Shown piece by piece: positions 3,140 to 30,934 of a DNA stretch of 30,934 nucleotides. The DNA lies in assembly GCA_016193065.1 (NCBI GenBank), contig JACPSX010000261.1, forward strand, positions 1 through 30,934, written 5' to 3'. The stretch's first letter is position 1; every line of letters starts with the position of its first letter. Below the pieces are notes generated by a model, which had not been told where the DNA came from, ran no database searches, and saw only the letters and a program-made list of their open reading frames with translations. This DNA is from Candidatus Tectimicrobiota bacterium (GTDB taxonomy: Bacteria; JACPSX01). The translations under genes and the position numbers were made by a program.

Positions 3140-3178
3140 ATGGCAAAGGATATTTGGAATCCCTGGAAGAGTAAGTGA
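3140..3178 (+). CDS. Possible 12-residue leader peptide
   Basis: ATG to TGA encodes MAKDIWNPWKSK, preceded by a purine-rich AAGGAAAATAGG. It ends exactly where the duplicated leader of the next gene begins. It may be translated and couple to the downstream gene, or be chance. There is no independent support. Confidence 0.15.
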   Translation: MAKDIWNPWKSK

Positions 3179-3210
3179 GCGTTTAACAACTCGTGAAGGA
3201 GGATCGAATC
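3178..3210 (+). promoter_or_regulatory. Duplicated leader and ribosome binding site, copy 2
   Basis: Second copy of the 33-nt leader seen at 1215-1247 (29 of 33 identical, same spacing to the ATG), including the Shine-Dalgarno GAAGGAGG. Confidence 0.6.
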
Positions 3211-3825
3211 ATGCGGTACATTTTCATCACCACACTTTTGGCGACCACGATGCTGGCATCACCGGTGCTGGCACAGACGGTCACTGCGACCCAGTCCACA
3301 ACGGTTCAGGCGAACACAAACCTGAAAGCGTACAACTCACTCTCTCCGGGTAACCAGATGATCGCTCGGGCGTTGTTCAGCACTCAGGTGTCGAGTTCGA
3401 CTTCCGCAAGCACTAAGCCTCTCACCCTGAATCAAATCGCCACGATGAAGGAAAGTGGCAAGGGTTGGGCGGAAATCTTTGAGGGCATGAAAGCCCAGGG
3501 CCGGTTGCAGGACAAAACTCTGGGGCAAGTGGTTAGCAGGTATAACCGCCTGCAACGGGTGAACGCGTCCCAGATCACCAAGATTGAGGAAAGTAATCAG
3601 ACCTCGATAAAGGATAAAAGCCGAGGTGATCTTGATGACAGAGATGTAGAGGGTAGTCTACGGTCAACCCTTCCAAACAATCCCGAACCCCGTAGCTCCT
3701 CCTCAGGATCAGTCCAGGGGAACGTGGACAACTCTTTCAGCGTGGGGTATGGCGCCGGTTCCAGAGGACCGGGTGGAGGGCTTGGCGGAGGCGGCCGTGT
3801 CGGTGTTGGCCTAGGCCGCCGTTAG
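3211..3825 (+). CDS. Secreted protein of unknown function, paralogue 2
   Basis: 204 residues from the ATG at 3211. A GTG 18 nt upstream is in frame but lies on top of the Shine-Dalgarno. The signal peptide MRYIFITTLLATTMLASPVLA is nearly the same as in the gene at 1248. The shared core reads SLSPGNQMIARALFSTQ, LTLNQIATMKESGKGWAEIF and MKAQGRLQDKTLGQVVS. The C-terminal half differs from its paralogue: it is Ser/Asn/Asp-rich, then ends in a Gly-rich tail (GPGGGLGGGGRVGVGLGRR). The two genes plus leaders look like a tandem duplication with divergent tails. The KGW-x-EIF-x-x-MK core may be a small ligand- or envelope-binding module, but its function is unknown. It ends 15 nt before PBP1A. Confidence 0.7.
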   Translation: MRYIFITTLLATTMLASPVLAQTVTATQSTTVQANTNLKAYNSLSPGNQMIARALFSTQVSSSTSASTKPLTLNQIATMKESGKGWAEIFEGMKAQGRLQDKTLGQVVSRYNRLQRVNASQITKIEESNQTSIKDKSRGDLDDRDVEGSLRSTLPNNPEPRSSSSGSVQGNVDNSFSVGYGAGSRGPGGGLGGGGRVGVGLGRR

Positions 3826-3840
3826 GGCTAGAAGAAGATC

Positions 3841-5883
3841 ATGCCCGGCAGGAATGAAGGTGCCCCACTCCCCCACCGGCTGCTGGAATTCTGGCGCCGC
3901 CGGCCCGCGGCCGGCAGGGGGATCCTGCTGGGCGTGGCGGTTGTAGTTCCAGCGGGCCTCTTGATCTTTCTGGTGGTCCTTCTTTCCTTGCCCCCGGTGA
4001 CCGGATTGGAGGAGTTGCGGTCGATCCAGAGTGTTCAACTGTACGATGAGAACGATGAACCAATCCCGGGATCCCTTAGGGGGCAGAGGATCTTCATACC
4101 ACTGGCCAAGATCCCCAAAACGCTCAGAGATGCAGTCATTGCCGTAGAGGATGCCCGGTTTTACTCTCATTTCGGTGTGGACCCCACCGGGGTGGCCCGC
4201 GCGATCTATCAGAACCTTCGCCACGGGCGCATCGTGGAAGGCGGCAGCACGATCACTCAGCAACTGGCCAGGGTTCTGTTCCTCACTTCGGACAGGCGTC
4301 TGGATAGGAAGATTAGCGAACTGGTTCTCGCCCTGGAGCTGGAGCACCGGTACTCGAAAGACCAGATTCTAGAGATGTATCTGAACCGGGTTTACTTCGG
4401 TCACGGTGCGTACGGTGTGGAGGCGGCTGCGAAGACGTATTTCGGCAAGCCTGTAACCGAGCTTTCTCTTTCCGAGGCCGCGCTGCTGGCCGGCATCCCT
4501 CGCGCGCCGGGGCTCTACTCGCCGTTTAATTACCCGGATCTGGCCCTGCGCCGCCGGACGCATGTGCTAAATCGGATGGTGGAAACAGGGGTTCTAAAAC
4601 CGGCCGTTGCTCAACGGGCCAAGACAGCCGGTCTGCGCCTGGTTCCTCCCGATCGGCGAACTACGGGTCTGTACTTTGTTGAGTTTGTCCGCGAGATGTT
4701 GATCGAAAAGTACGGAGAGGACATGGTGTTCAGGGGCGGCCTTCAGGTTCACACCACTCTGTCTCCCCGCTTGCAACGACTGGCCGAGCAAGCCTTGCTT
4801 CAGGGCCTCAAGAATCTGGAGTCTCGGACTCTGCCTGTCCCCGCCAGCAAGCGCGGAATACCGTCGGGAGCACCGGAAGGAGCTATCCTTACGATCGAGC
4901 CCGGGACCGGATACATTAAGGCGATGGTCGGCGGCGCTGACTTTTTCCGCAGCGAGTTTAACCGGGCCGTGACGGCCAGGCGGCAGCCGGGATCGGCCTT
5001 CAAACCGTTTGTCTATCTCGCCGCCCTGGAAGCCGGGCTCACACCGGCGACTTGGATCGAGGACAGCCCGGTGAGTTACAAGATCGGGCGCAACGGAAAA
5101 CCGTGGCGGCCCGCCAACTACGGCGGGAAATATAACGGCGCCATTACACTCCAGCAAGGCCTGGAGGAGTCGGTGAACGTGGCAACTGTGAAACTTCAGG
5201 AGAAGATCGGCATTCAGCGGACCATCGGATTGGCCCATCGTCTGGGGATTCGAAGCCCTCTCCACGAGGATCTCTCGCTGGCACTGGGAACCTCTGATCT
5301 CTCACTACTGGAACTGACGGGGGCATACGCTGCCCTGGCAAATCAGGGTGTTTGGATCTCACCCACCCCCATCCGTTACATTACGGACGCCCAAGGAAAG
5401 CTATTGGAGATGTACGTGCCGCAACTGCAGCGAGCAATATCGCGGGAACTGGCTTATGTCATCACTCACATGCTGATGGGCGTTGTGGAGCGAGGCACCG
5501 GGAAAACAGCTAAGGCGCTCGGCCGACCGATCGCGGGAAAAACAGGGACCACGAATGACTACTCGAACGCCTGGTTCATCGGGTACACCCCGAGCCTGGT
5601 CACCGGAGTGTGGGTAGGCTACGACCAGCCCAGGAGTCTCGGGAAAGAAGAGACGGGGGCGCGTGCGGCGCTACCGATTTGGGTCCGCTACATCGGCAAG
5701 GCCCTGGCGAACTCCCCTCCTGAGAATTTCCCGGTTCCTGAAGGGGTGGTGTCGGTCCCCGTGGACCTAAACGCGTCTGGGACCTGCGCTCGCCCGGTGG
5801 AGATGGCCTTCCTCCAGGGCACAGAACCCTCTAATACCTGCGGTGGATTTCTCAGCATATTCCGCCGGATGTTCCACTTTTAA
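3841..5883 (+). CDS. mrcA: Bifunctional penicillin-binding protein 1A
   Basis: 680 residues. Class A PBP that polymerises lipid II (glycosyltransferase family 51) and cross-links the stem peptides in the periplasm. A single membrane anchor lies at about residues 28-50. The GT51 domain (about 55-230) holds the catalytic Glu103 in AVEDARFYSH, plus GGSTITQQLARV and RKISELVLALELE. The transpeptidase domain (about 345-620) has the nucleophile Ser385 in PGSAFKP (SxxK), the SxN motif Ser444-Val-Asn446 and KTGT at 567-570. It is shorter than the E. coli enzyme (850 residues) and lacks its large inserted OB-like domain, as in many other phyla. The start has only a modest upstream signal (AGAAGAAG). 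Repeat A1 follows its stop directly. Confidence 0.95.
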   Translation: MPGRNEGAPLPHRLLEFWRRRPAAGRGILLGVAVVVPAGLLIFLVVLLSLPPVTGLEELRSIQSVQLYDENDEPIPGSLRGQRIFIPLAKIPKTLRDAVIAVEDARFYSHFGVDPTGVARAIYQNLRHGRIVEGGSTITQQLARVLFLTSDRRLDRKISELVLALELEHRYSKDQILEMYLNRVYFGHGAYGVEAAAKTYFGKPVTELSLSEAALLAGIPRAPGLYSPFNYPDLALRRRTHVLNRMVETGVLKPAVAQRAKTAGLRLVPPDRRTTGLYFVEFVREMLIEKYGEDMVFRGGLQVHTTLSPRLQRLAEQALLQGLKNLESRTLPVPASKRGIPSGAPEGAILTIEPGTGYIKAMVGGADFFRSEFNRAVTARRQPGSAFKPFVYLAALEAGLTPATWIEDSPVSYKIGRNGKPWRPANYGGKYNGAITLQQGLEESVNVATVKLQEKIGIQRTIGLAHRLGIRSPLHEDLSLALGTSDLSLLELTGAYAALANQGVWISPTPIRYITDAQGKLLEMYVPQLQRAISRELAYVITHMLMGVVERGTGKTAKALGRPIAGKTGTTNDYSNAWFIGYTPSLVTGVWVGYDQPRSLGKEETGARAALPIWVRYIGKALANSPPENFPVPEGVVSVPVDLNASGTCARPVEMAFLQGTEPSNTCGGFLSIFRRMFHF

Positions 5884-5886
5884 CCC

Positions 5887-6113
5887 TGATCCGAAATTCC
5901 CCGCCGGGGTCATTCGGCGTTGGCCCGCGGGTGACACCCGCCGGGCGGGTACCCGGGACGCCTCCGCAGAGCCGCGCCGGGCACCGAGCCGGCCGCAGGC
6001 AGGGCTAGGTCGGGTTCGAGGAGGCGCCCCCGGGTACCCGCAGAGTGGGTGCACTTTGTGGGCACCCGCCCTGGCCGGGTACCCGCTTTGCGGGTGCAGG
6101 TCCTGCGGGCCAA
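5887..6113. repeat. Structured intergenic repeat, family A copy 1
   Basis: It shares its left part with the copy at 15985-16131: ATCCGAAATTCCCC, TCATTCGG, TTGGCCCGCGGGTG, GCCTCCGCAGAGCCGCGC and, further on, CGAGGAGGCGCCCC and CCTGCGGGCCAA. The ends TTGGCCCGC (5920-5928) and GCGGGCCAA (6105-6113) are a perfect inverted repeat. GCCTCC...GGAGGC is nested inside. Compared with copy 2 it carries about 80 extra bases, including family C hairpins at 6032-6051 and 6077-6096. It fills the gap between the convergent PBP1A and bicupin genes, so it may also act as a bidirectional transcription end. Confidence 0.75.
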
Positions 6114-7895: not shown

Positions 7896-7994
7896 TCCAT
7901 CAGGTTCTAATCTCTTCTTTCTAATCCTAGACAGGGGATAAGTCAACCCCGATCCGAACACAACCACTCAGCCAGCAGAGGCGCTGGCGACAGA

Positions 7995-8090: not shown

Positions 8091-8207
8091 TCCGAGGGGG
8101 TAGCCCCCGCAAGCGACCTGAGAGGTTGCGAGGCGAAGACCCACCCGATCCGGCCGAACATCTCTCGTCGCAAGCTCTCCGGGAGCTCAAGGGGGCACTC
8201 CCGAGGA
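8091..8207. repeat. Structured intergenic repeat, family B copy 1
   Basis: The outer arms are TCCGAGGGGGTAGCCCCC (8091-8108) and GGGGGCACTCCCGAGGA (8191-8207). The inner arms are GAGAGGTTGCGA (8120-8131) and TCGCAAGCTCTC (8168-8179), pairing at 11 of 12 positions with one G-G mismatch. Other copies are at 11973-12120, 28220-28334 and 30844-30934. Confidence 0.75.
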
Positions 8208-14741: not shown

Positions 14742-15500
14742 TCAGCCCATGAGGGACAAATACCAGAAGATAATCACCTTGCCGTAAAACAATGCGCCCA
14801 CAGCTCCCAGCGCCAGAAAAGGACCAAACGGGATCATGTCCTTGCGTCCTTTGAGCCCTAGAATGAGGAGAGCAATGGCCACCAGAGAGCCCAGCAGGAT
14901 TCCAGCAAAAATCGTTACCAGGGTCAACTGCCAGCCCACAAAGGCTCCGATCATAGCGATCAGCTTGATGTCCCCGCCCCCCATTCCGCCGCGGCTCACC
15001 AGCGCAATCAGGTAGAAAAGCCCTCCCCCCAACAGAACTCCCAGGAGGAGGTCCAGAACATGGTTCATCGACACCAGGAAACCGAACAAGAGGCCAACGG
15101 CAATCCCGGGCAGCGTAATCATATCGGGGACGAGCTTATGTTCCAGGTCGATGAAGCTGACGACCACCAGAGCGCTCAGAAGGACCGCGGCCTCCACCCC
15201 CTGCCATGTGGGGCCTAATTTCCGGTAGACCAGCAAAAAAAGGACGCCGGTGAGCAGCTCAACCAGAGGGTAACGTACGCTGATGGGTTCCCGGCAGCGT
15301 GCGCAACGGCCGCGCAGGAACAGATAACTCAGGATGGGGACGTTCTGGTGGGGCAAGATCGCGGCATTGCAGCGGGGGCAGTGGGAAGCCGGAGCGATGA
15401 GCGATTGCCGGCGGGGCAGGCGGAAGATACACACGTTGGCAAAGCTGCCGATGGTCGTTCCCAGGACAAAGGCTCCCAGCAAAGGGAGTAGCTCCGTCAC
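14742..15500 (-). CDS. pilD: Type IV prepilin peptidase / N-methyltransferase
   Basis: 252 residues. It cleaves the leader of type IV pilins and type II secretion pseudopilins at the inner membrane and methylates the new N-terminus. The cytoplasmic loop has the two CxxC pairs (Cys41/Cys44 and Cys66/Cys69). The aspartic protease residues are Asp118 in SFIDLEHKLVPD and Asp177 in GMGGGDIKL. About eight hydrophobic segments are visible. The GTG start overlaps the recX stop by 4 nt (GTGA), with GAGGAGG upstream, so the two are translationally coupled. No pilin genes are in the window. Confidence 0.95.
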   Translation of the reverse strand: MTELLPLLGAFVLGTTIGSFANVCIFRLPRRQSLIAPASHCPRCNAAILPHQNVPILSYLFLRGRCARCREPISVRYPLVELLTGVLFLLVYRKLGPTWQGVEAAVLLSALVVVSFIDLEHKLVPDMITLPGIAVGLLFGFLVSMNHVLDLLLGVLLGGGLFYLIALVSRGGMGGGDIKLIAMIGAFVGWQLTLVTIFAGILLGSLVAIALLILGLKGRKDMIPFGPFLALGAVGALFYGKVIIFWYLSLMG

Positions 15501-15970
15501 TGAACCTCCTCGATCACATGCTGCGCCAGCTCGTAGGAGAAACCCCGCCCGATCAGAAAGCGAAAGAGTCTCTCTCGGACTTTCTCGGGGGAACCTGCAC
15601 GGCTACTCTTCAACTTCTTGCGGGCCGCTTCCAGGGCCATCTCGTGCTCCCGGTTCTCGTCCATCGATTCCCTCACGATCGCTGTTGCCAGGGCCTCCCC
15701 CAGCCCCCGGCGGATCAGCTCCTGGCGCAGGAGCCGGGCTCCCATGGGTTTTCTCTCCAGGCAGTCACGCGCCCACTGGCGCCCGAACGCCTCGTCGTCC
15801 AGGTATCCGGCTTCCTCCAGGTAAGAGCTGACCCTGCGCATCAGAGACGGTTCGAAGCGGGCCTTGTGCAGCCGCTGTTCGACCTCGAACCGGCTGCGGG
15901 CCCGCCGAGCCAGGTAGCGCACCGCAGTTTCCAGGGCCGCTTTCCAGCGGCTCTCTTCCTCTTCCACCAT
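15497..15970 (-). CDS. recX: Regulatory protein RecX
   Basis: 157 residues. RecX binds RecA filaments and limits their extension. It consists of tandem three-helix repeats; family landmarks are ALETAVRYLARRARSRFEVEQRL, YLEEAGYLDDEAFGRQWARDCL and GARLLRQELIRRGL. The frame stays open a further 58 codons upstream, but that extension translates the family A repeat, so the ATG at 15970 (AGGTGA upstream) is preferred. It overlaps pilD by 4 nt. Unusually, a 147-nt structured repeat separates it from recA. Confidence 0.88.
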   Translation of the reverse strand: MVEEEESRWKAALETAVRYLARRARSRFEVEQRLHKARFEPSLMRRVSSYLEEAGYLDDEAFGRQWARDCLERKPMGARLLRQELIRRGLGEALATAIVRESMDENREHEMALEAARKKLKSSRAGSPEKVRERLFRFLIGRGFSYELAQHVIEEVQ

Positions 15971-15984
15971 TTCACCTAACCCCA

Positions 15985-16131
15985 ATCCGAAATTCCCCAT
16001 CAGGATCATTCGGAATTGGCCCGCGGGTGGCGTCGGGGATGCCTCCGCAGAGCCGCGCGAAAGTGGGACCCTCGTCAGGGTGACGTAGCGCGGCTCGAGG
16101 AGGCGCCCCGGCGACAGGACCTGCGGGCCAA
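15985..16131. repeat. Structured intergenic repeat, family A copy 2, between recA and recX
   Basis: The ends TTGGCCCGC (16016-16024) and GCGGGCCAA (16123-16131) pair perfectly. Nested inside, GCCTCC (16041-16046) pairs with GGAGGC (16099-16104), GAGCCGCGC (16050-16058) with GCGCGGCTC (16088-16096), and ACCCT (16068-16072) with AGGGT (16077-16081) around CGTC. The left flank TCCGAA...TTCGGA forms a further stem. It therefore folds as one long rod. It starts 39 nt after the recA stop and ends 14 nt before the recX start. It could limit read-through from recA to recX. Confidence 0.8.
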
Positions 16132-16170
16132 CGGCGCGAGTCAACCAGGTTGGTTTTCTTCGGATTAGGG

Positions 16171-17202
16171 CTAAGATTCTGCCCCTGTTCCCACCGAAGC
16201 GCGAGTCATTCCAAGTTTTTGCCGCAACTCCTTCTCGATCTCGCCGGCCGCGGCCGGATTCTCCCGCAGGAATTTCTTGGCGTTCTCCCTCCCCTGCCCG
16301 ATCCTCTCGTCCCGGTACGAGTACCAGGCCCCGCTCTTGGCGATGATCCCGTTATCCACACCGAGATCCGCCAGATCCCCCTCCCGGGAAATCCCTTCGC
16401 CGTAAATGATGTCAAAGCTCGCCTGCTTGAAGGGAGGAGCCACTTTGTTCTTGACGACCTTCACCCGGGTGCGGCTGCCGATCACGTCTTCCCCTTCCTT
16501 GATGGACTCCAAGCGACGGATATCCATGCGGACGGAGGCGTAGAACTTGAGGGCGTTGCCCCCCGTCGTGGTCTCCGGGTTCCCGAACATGACACCGATC
16601 TTTTGCCGGATCTGGTTAACGAAAATGACGCTGGTGCGGGATTTGCTGATGATGGCGGTGAGCTTGCGCAAAGCTTGTGACATGAGCCGGGCCTGGAGCC
16701 CCATGTGGGCGTCTCCCATTTCCCCGTCAATCTCCGCCTTCGGCACCAGGGCCGCCACCGAATCGATGACGATGACGTCCACCGCGCCGCTGCGCACCAG
16801 GACCTCGGCAATTTCCAGAGCTTGTTCCCCCGTATCGGGCTGTGAAATGAGCAGGTCGTCGGTGTTTACGCCCAGGTTCCGGGCGTAAGACGGATCCAGG
16901 GCATGCTCGGCGTCAATGAACGCCGCCACGCCGCCGGACTTCTGAGCTTCGGCAATGATGTGCAGGGTCAGGGTGGTTTTCCCGGAGGATTCGGGTCCGA
17001 AGATCTCCGCCACCCGGCCGCGCGGAATCCCCCCGACTCCCAACGCCGCATCCAGGGAGATGGAGCCGGTGGGAATTACAGCCACATCGGCCAGGGCATC
17101 CTCGGAACCCAGTCGCATGATTGCCCCTTTACCGAATTGGCGCTCGATCTGACTGAAGGCCAGGTCCAGGGCTTTCTTCTTGTTTTCCTTGGTGGCGTCC
17201 AT
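16171..17202 (-). CDS. recA: Recombinase RecA
   Basis: 343 residues, full length. The ATP-dependent strand-exchange protein also stimulates LexA self-cleavage. Walker A is GPESSGKT at residues 69-76. Also visible are [19 protein letters not shown], Walker B in [44 protein letters not shown] and the L2 loop [19 protein letters not shown]. The C-terminal tail is short and lacks the strongly acidic end of E. coli RecA. AGGAG lies 9 nt before the ATG. There is no recognisable SOS box in the 37-nt gap to thpR, so it seems to be transcribed from upstream genes or from a promoter inside thpR. Confidence 0.98.
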
Positions 17203-27932: not shown

Positions 27933-28027
27933 GGGAAATTTAGCCCTTTCCGGCCCGCCGCGCCGGGTTTGGCCCGCCAATTTTTGTGGCGCCACAGGAA
28001 AAGGGCCGCATCCCGCCCTTCGCTTCC

Positions 28028-28047
28028 GGGTACCCGCCTTGCGGGTG
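28028..28047. repeat. Family C hairpin
   Basis: GGGTACCCGC-CTT-GCGGGTG. The ACCCGC and GCGGGT arms pair around a 3-nt loop. The same 22-nt sequence, including TT after the hairpin, recurs 114 bp downstream at 28142. Near-identical forms occur at 6032 and 6077, and variants at 5947 and 12157. Confidence 0.65.
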
Positions 28048-28141
28048 TTCCGCAGCGACCCTGTCGGGCCTGCGCTTGGACGAAGCTTCCGGAATTCCCT
28101 GCGGTCAGTTCCGGCTTTCATCCGGCGCAGGCCTCGGTGGC

Positions 28142-28161
28142 GGGTACCCGCCTTGCGGGTG
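28142..28161. repeat. Family C hairpin
   Basis: Exact repeat of the 28028-28047 element, in direct orientation. Confidence 0.65.
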
Positions 28162-28219
28162 TTGCTGCTCCCGGCAGTTTTGCTCAGGGCGGGAATGTCG
28201 GCCCCCTCAGTGCTCTGCT

Positions 28220-28334
28220 TCCGAGGGGTTGCCCCCGTAGGCGATCTAAGCGGTTGCGAGGAAGAGACCTCTCAATCCGGCTGATACAACTCGCGTCGCA
28301 AGCGCTTCGTGAGCCCAAGGGGGCACCCCGAGGA
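28220..28334. repeat. Structured intergenic repeat, family B copy 3
   Basis: The outer arms are TCCGAGGGGTTGCCCCC (28220-28236) and GGGGGCACCCCGAGGA (28319-28334). The inner arms are AAGCGGTTGCGA (28248-28259) and TCGCAAGCGCTT (28296-28307), pairing at 11 of 12 with the same G-G mismatch as copy 1. From 28271 to 28361 it is nearly identical (89 of 91 by eye) to the inverted copy at the right window edge. Confidence 0.78.
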
Positions 28335-28375
28335 TGCCGAAGAGAAACTGGGGGTGGGCAAACCGTGCAGGGGCG

Positions 28376-30843: not shown

Positions 30844-30934
30844 TTGCCCACCCCCAGTTTCTCTTCGGCATCCTCGGGGTGCCCCCTTGGGCTCACGAAG
30901 CGCTTGCGACGCGAGTTGTGTCGGCCGGATTGAG
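30844..30934. repeat. Structured intergenic repeat, family B copy 4, inverted and cut by the window edge
   Basis: The reverse complement of 30844-30934 matches 28271-28361 at 89 of 91 positions by eye. It holds the right inner arm, the right outer arm and about 27 further bases (GCCGAAGAGAAACTGGG and on). The other half lies outside the window. Confidence 0.75.

Follow-up and report, generated by a model that had tools for sequence, protein, structure and literature searches.

A MITE inserted at the recA stop codon separates recA from recX in a Candidatus Tectimicrobiota genome

What is the strongly folded repeat that fills the gap between recA and recX, and does it set the balance between the two gene products? 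The window analyzed here (the whole 30,934-nt stretch) is contig C182 of a 2.9-Mb genome assembled from metagenomic data in 294 contigs; both genes lie on its minus strand and were confirmed by Pfam. In E. coli, a terminator between recA and recX limits read-through into recX, and work by Pages and colleagues from 2003 is said to give a general precedent for unequal expression of the pair. The original prediction placed a dispersed repeat with nested stems in this gap and suggested that it replaces such a terminator, possibly co-opted to set the RecA:RecX ratio. recX is usually found downstream of recA; co-transcription of the two is known from several species, and the mycobacterial genes overlap (PMC3062782). 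Among other bacteria with recX directly after recA, the genes frequently overlap or recX starts within ~60 nt, and some pairs are 80–200 nt apart. The features of the locus and of its relatives in the window are as follows.

15497–15970, minus strand: recX, 157 aa, ATG at 15970, three Pfam domains (RecX_HTH1/2/3)
15976–15979, unstranded: CTAA, left target-site duplication, identical to 16171–16174; reads TTAG on the strand of recX and provides that tetramer in the recX Shine-Dalgarno region TTAGGTGA
15980–16170, plus strand: full-length family A MITE, 191 bp, supported by a terminal inverted repeat (TIR) pair with target duplication, 22 places in the genome and a fold z-score of -7.8
15980–15991, plus strand: left TIR CCCCAATCCGAA, 12 bp, from pattern searches against a reversed control
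~16018–16130, plus strand: GC-rich nested palindromic core module (GGCCCGCGGGT ... ACCTGCGGGCC), 21 matches when searched alone, common to copies with different arms
16159–16170, plus strand: right TIR TTCGGATTAGGG, 12 bp, from TIR pairing
16171–16174, unstranded: right target-site duplication CTAA, from sequence and reading frame; holds the recA stop TAG (16173–16171, minus strand)
16171–17202, minus strand: recA, 343 aa (PF00154, E = 2e-142)
5880–5883, unstranded: TTAA at the left end of a second copy; holds the PBP1A stop TAA (5881–5883; PBP1A reading frame 3841–5883)
5884–~6113, plus strand: second family A copy after PBP1A, right-truncated, with GGGTACCCGC..GCGGGTG hairpins in its stem
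7947–7957, plus strand: solitary left TIR end CCCCGATCCGA preceded by TCAA, from the end-motif search; no partner end found

The repeat was predicted at 15985–16131, and it does lie there; that interval is too narrow, however, leaving out the outermost left bases and the entire right arm of an element that spans 15980–16170 and is framed by 4-bp duplications. Across the genome, the end-motif pattern occurs at 25 sites versus 1 with the reversed control, and the exact core 11-mer of the TIR at 29 versus 1. In 25 TIR pairs selected by their ends alone, with the flanks uninspected, the flanking 4-mers were identical in 18 (partner-shuffle mean 2.3, maximum 9 in 20,000), and flank identity peaked at k = 4 only. 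These identical flanks mark target-site duplications, identifying the family as MITEs moved by transposition. A first reading of the ends as TA-duplicating (ERIC/Correia-like) was ruled out by the clear 4-bp duplications. Judged from these sequence hallmarks, the recA–recX hairpin is a non-autonomous MITE that was moved by transposition.

Genome-wide copy counts are lower bounds: the repeat query matched 22 distinct places, and at least 28 two-ended elements carry the family TIRs, at 96–249 bp and without a transposase gene. The dispersed nature of the repeat is thereby confirmed, as is in part a second copy after PBP1A, which is present at 5884–~6113 with its right end missing. About half of the inverted end pairs enclose non-rod sequence unrelated to the palindrome (L146, L147, L149–L157, L163, L164, L166 and L172). 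Since the same TIRs surround unrelated interiors, the mobile unit is defined by its ends and not by the rod. The make-up is modular, the core being present in L031 and L038 with different arms. In L028 (2613–2803), it is inverted relative to the arms within a perfect TTAG target duplication, as though recombination across the inverted ends of the core had turned it around; L042 (493–599) is a 107-bp derivative without the core and with an intact TTAA duplication, as a deletion between GCGGGTG direct repeats would leave it. Copies occur at many unrelated loci in both orientations relative to genes, and insertions sit in non-coding sequence, repeatedly at stop codons. The rod fold therefore came with the mobile family and did not arise at the recA–recX locus, whose copy matches the family consensus at 94% identity. 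Searches of 40 other genomes, none of the same phylum, found the repeat absent, with one 29-bp match (E = 3.5e-4) in a single genome, and a search of viral contigs gave 0 matches.

Joining the flanks without the insert yields …GAATCT TAG GTGAA ATG GTG…, a recA–recX gap of 5 nt in which the recX Shine-Dalgarno AGGTGA overlaps the recA stop. In the proposed history, the MITE would have transposed into TTAG at the end of recA within a tightly packed recA-TAG-GTGAA-ATG-recX operon, and the 4-bp target duplication would have restored both the recA stop and the Shine-Dalgarno region of recX. We regard this splitting of a tight operon as highly probable. Because four bases were duplicated, the recA stop and the recX ribosome-binding region are both kept; as read from the DNA, both reading frames survived the insertion. 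The locus thus offers a sequence-level example of a mobile element entering a 5-nt operon gap with neither gene broken, in which a target at a stop codon plus a 4-bp duplication restores the stop of the first gene and the ribosome-binding site of the second.

This arrangement recurs. Joining the flanks at the junction of enoyl-CoA hydratase and its next gene also gives a tight operon junction (TTAGGAGGACAGGCCATG), and a stop codon occupies target positions 2–4 in 9 of 29 elements, namely at recA, PBP1A and genes of the DUF2059, SLT, SpoVR, ECH, DUF2232, PfkB and HHH families. Roughly 7% would be expected, with gene calls covering 71% of the sequence; given such incomplete calls, the true expectation could be about twice as high and the excess perhaps only twofold. 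The apparent bias can reflect a YTRR-like target together with selection against coding insertions. Several operon junctions in this genome, recA–recX among them, have gained inserts through a target at the stop codon; in this way repeats could alter the output ratio of adjacent genes, in this case those for a recombinase and its inhibitor.

The fold of the element is well beyond chance. The interval 15985–16131 folds at -96.4 kcal/mol versus -63.3 ± 4.25 for dinucleotide shuffles (z = -7.8, 0/200). Folding and a stem check bear out the predicted nested stems, three of them perfect (GAGCCGCGC/GCGCGGCTC, GCCTCC/GGAGGC and ACCCT/AGGGT), with one G-T pair each in GGCCCGCGGGT/ACCTGCGGGCC and CGTCGGGG/CCCCGGCG. 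The sense RNA (recA to recX) with its flanks reaches -122.8 kcal/mol (z = -3.5), with the element predicted as a single long hairpin at whose base CUUAG from the recA stop region pairs with UUAGG from the recX ribosome site. Rfam gave no match above the gathering score at the element, two chance-level matches, and only tRNA elsewhere in the window. Among 12 copies compared, two-sided changes affected 0 of 44 base pairs in core helices 5–10; they are confined to outer helices 1, 3 and 4, where L028, L031 and L038, with swapped or unrelated arms, align.

The consequences for recX were assessed by predicted accessibility, with values that vary with the flank length folded (their direction is stable) and a model that ignores co-transcriptional folding and RNase III. 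The recX AGG is predicted to be unpaired with a probability of 0.01–0.04 with the element versus 0.3–0.7 in the empty site; opening the site would cost 4.1–4.3 kcal/mol versus 0.7–1.5 kcal/mol, and 1.1–2.1 kcal/mol if the model places a ribosome at the recA stop. Masking to a comparable degree is also predicted at the enoyl-CoA hydratase junction and not clearly at three others. In the recA–recX mRNA, the 191 nt would fold as one long hairpin whose body, a long duplex, is a possible RNase III substrate; by analogy with NEMIS of Neisseria, such processing is a reasonable expectation (PMC2229807). RNA processing and masking of the ribosome site could leave recX expressed less than recA, or less coupled to it. 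We infer this lowering or uncoupling, by processing or masking and not by a terminator, to be the most likely effect, with confidence about evenly poised.

Whether the element might instead be another kind of repeat, or no true insert, was weighed against its ends. An extragenic palindrome of the REP/BIME type, mobilized by a RAYT (Y1) transposase, would share its palindromic, dispersed and mostly intergenic character, and the genome does hold two Y1_Tnp genes; the defined TIRs and 4-bp duplication contradict this origin, the length is 191 bp versus 20–40 bp, and members without the palindromic core use the same ends, making it very improbable for the 191-bp element. For the small GGGTACCCGC..GCGGGTG hairpins that some copies carry inside them, such an origin may yet apply. 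Misplacement of the repeat during assembly is a concern in a draft of 294 contigs, where repeats are error-prone, and yet the flanks are the expected neighbors recA and recX, and the perfect target duplication at the junctions rejoins into a sensible operon; we give an artefact hardly any credence.

The functional alternatives turn on what the hairpin does to expression. An attenuator or terminator co-opted to set the RecA:RecX ratio by limited read-through, as in E. coli, would fit the position between the two genes, the very stable hairpin on the transcribed strand and the precedent said to exist for unequal recA and recX expression. The recA-to-recX strand of the gap, however, contains neither a hairpin followed by a U-run nor a promoter match, and the only terminator-like match lies on the opposite strand inside recX. 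Lacking a U-run on the relevant strand, an E. coli-style terminator is not supported, and neither is the predicted replacement of one; the same hairpin, moreover, stands at many unrelated loci in both orientations relative to genes, and its core is without covariation. Such a regulator is accordingly unlikely. The position does make some effect on the RecA:RecX balance plausible, but with the same core at ~20 unrelated loci and no compensatory changes in core pairs, selection keeping the element as a regulator is not supported. Space rules out a recX promoter lying after the repeat, as the target duplication and the recX ATG are just 5 nt apart. A stronger contender is a neutral passenger, in which the rod loops out, the recA stop and recX start meet at its base, and the output of the genes stays essentially the same; only in this expression effect does it part from the reading of lowered or uncoupled recX. 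The exact preservation of stop and Shine-Dalgarno speaks for it, as do insertions that are non-coding and often at stops, as expected if tolerated by selection. Against it stands the predicted burial of the AGG by a hairpin of about -100 kcal/mol that directly abuts the ribosome-binding site. We hold the neutral passenger to be a real if lesser possibility. A further idea treats the element as a transposon-made translational coupler: TTAG at the recA stop, a nearly self-complementary tetramer, would pair with TTAG in the recX Shine-Dalgarno at the rod base, and translation of recX would depend mainly on ribosomes that, in terminating on recA, melt that base. We consider this improbable; if true, and taken with the apparent stop-codon bias, it would mean that a MITE family turns operon junctions into stop-codon-gated switches.

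The reading of the insert as a transposed MITE can be set beside known families. YPAL of Yersinia shows a tendency to insert immediately after stop codons. Bacterial MITEs with long-hairpin transcripts are well described and include Correia/NEMIS, ERIC, RUP and YPAL (PMC2229807). Family A has the marks of this kind (12-bp TIRs, a fixed 4-bp target duplication, short length, dispersal and no transposase gene) and is a new family within it, set apart by its ends and its 4-bp YTRR-like target. Correia/NEMIS of Neisseria are likewise short, TIR-bounded, mostly intergenic elements that occur with and without an internal segment and duplicate their target; at ~100–155 bp, their transcripts fold into long hairpins for which RNase III cutting was proposed (PMC2229807). 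They differ in having TA ends and 24-bp TIRs, as against the 4-bp duplication and 12-bp TIR CCCCGATCCGAA of family A, and no sequence relation was seen. YPAL/RU-2 resembles family A in being palindromic, ~168 bp long and intergenic, and is expressed with upstream genes, the stability of whose transcripts it may affect (PMC2229807); its inverted repeats are internal and its target duplications span 3–26 bp, whereas those of family A are terminal and fixed at 4 bp. ERIC and RUP are also MITE-like, intergenic imperfect palindromes, and ERIC alters flanking transcript stability in an orientation-dependent manner (PMC2229807); both have 5'-TA-3' termini and 7–9-bp TIRs (PMC2229807, Table 1). The 5'-TA-3' termini common to Correia, ERIC and RUP are not found in family A, whose 4-bp duplication is mostly YTRR. 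Nor does a 191-bp TIR element match the REP/BIME pattern of 20–40 bp, RAYT and no target duplication. The 4-bp duplication resembles that of IS5 (YTAR, PMC10359306), although family A targets, unlike YTAR, also include TTGA, CTGA, TGGA and TGTA.

Searches with PF13358, PF01609, PF13546 and PF13701 in this ~86% complete assembly found no transposase flanked by CCCCGATCCGAA ends, and a DDE_5 (IS701-type) transposase was absent from the genome search. Two candidate autonomous partners were rejected by their differing ends, an IS630 on C24 (CTAGTGCACTGAC) and an IS1380 on C242 (CCCGGATTATTC). The latter (L176, 302–1776) encodes an IS1380-family transposase with a left end CTAA|CCCGGATTATTC and no right end found. 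That left end resembles the MITE ends in its 4-bp-like target and in starting with CCC, but not in sequence.

Other repeats were also seen. A hairpin unit of 20–24 nt, GGGTACCCGCNNNGCGGGTG, lies at 28026–28048, 28141–28163, 6029–6051, 6075–6096 and 5934–5956; it occurs alone or at several positions inside 191-bp copies, sometimes in both stem arms, and possibly represents a REP-like repeat in its own right. Possible movers of such small hairpin units are two Y1 (IS200/RAYT-like) transposase genes (L010, 157–792, and L009, on contigs C67 and C217). The window further contains an 81% identical direct repeat of 102 nt (1215–1316 and 3178–3279) and a 91-nt inverted repeat pair (28271–28361 and 30844–30934), 98% complementary and 2.5 kb apart, with its second arm at the contig end. 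A related 44-nt motif of the GGGCACCCC family appears again at 8158 and 12071.
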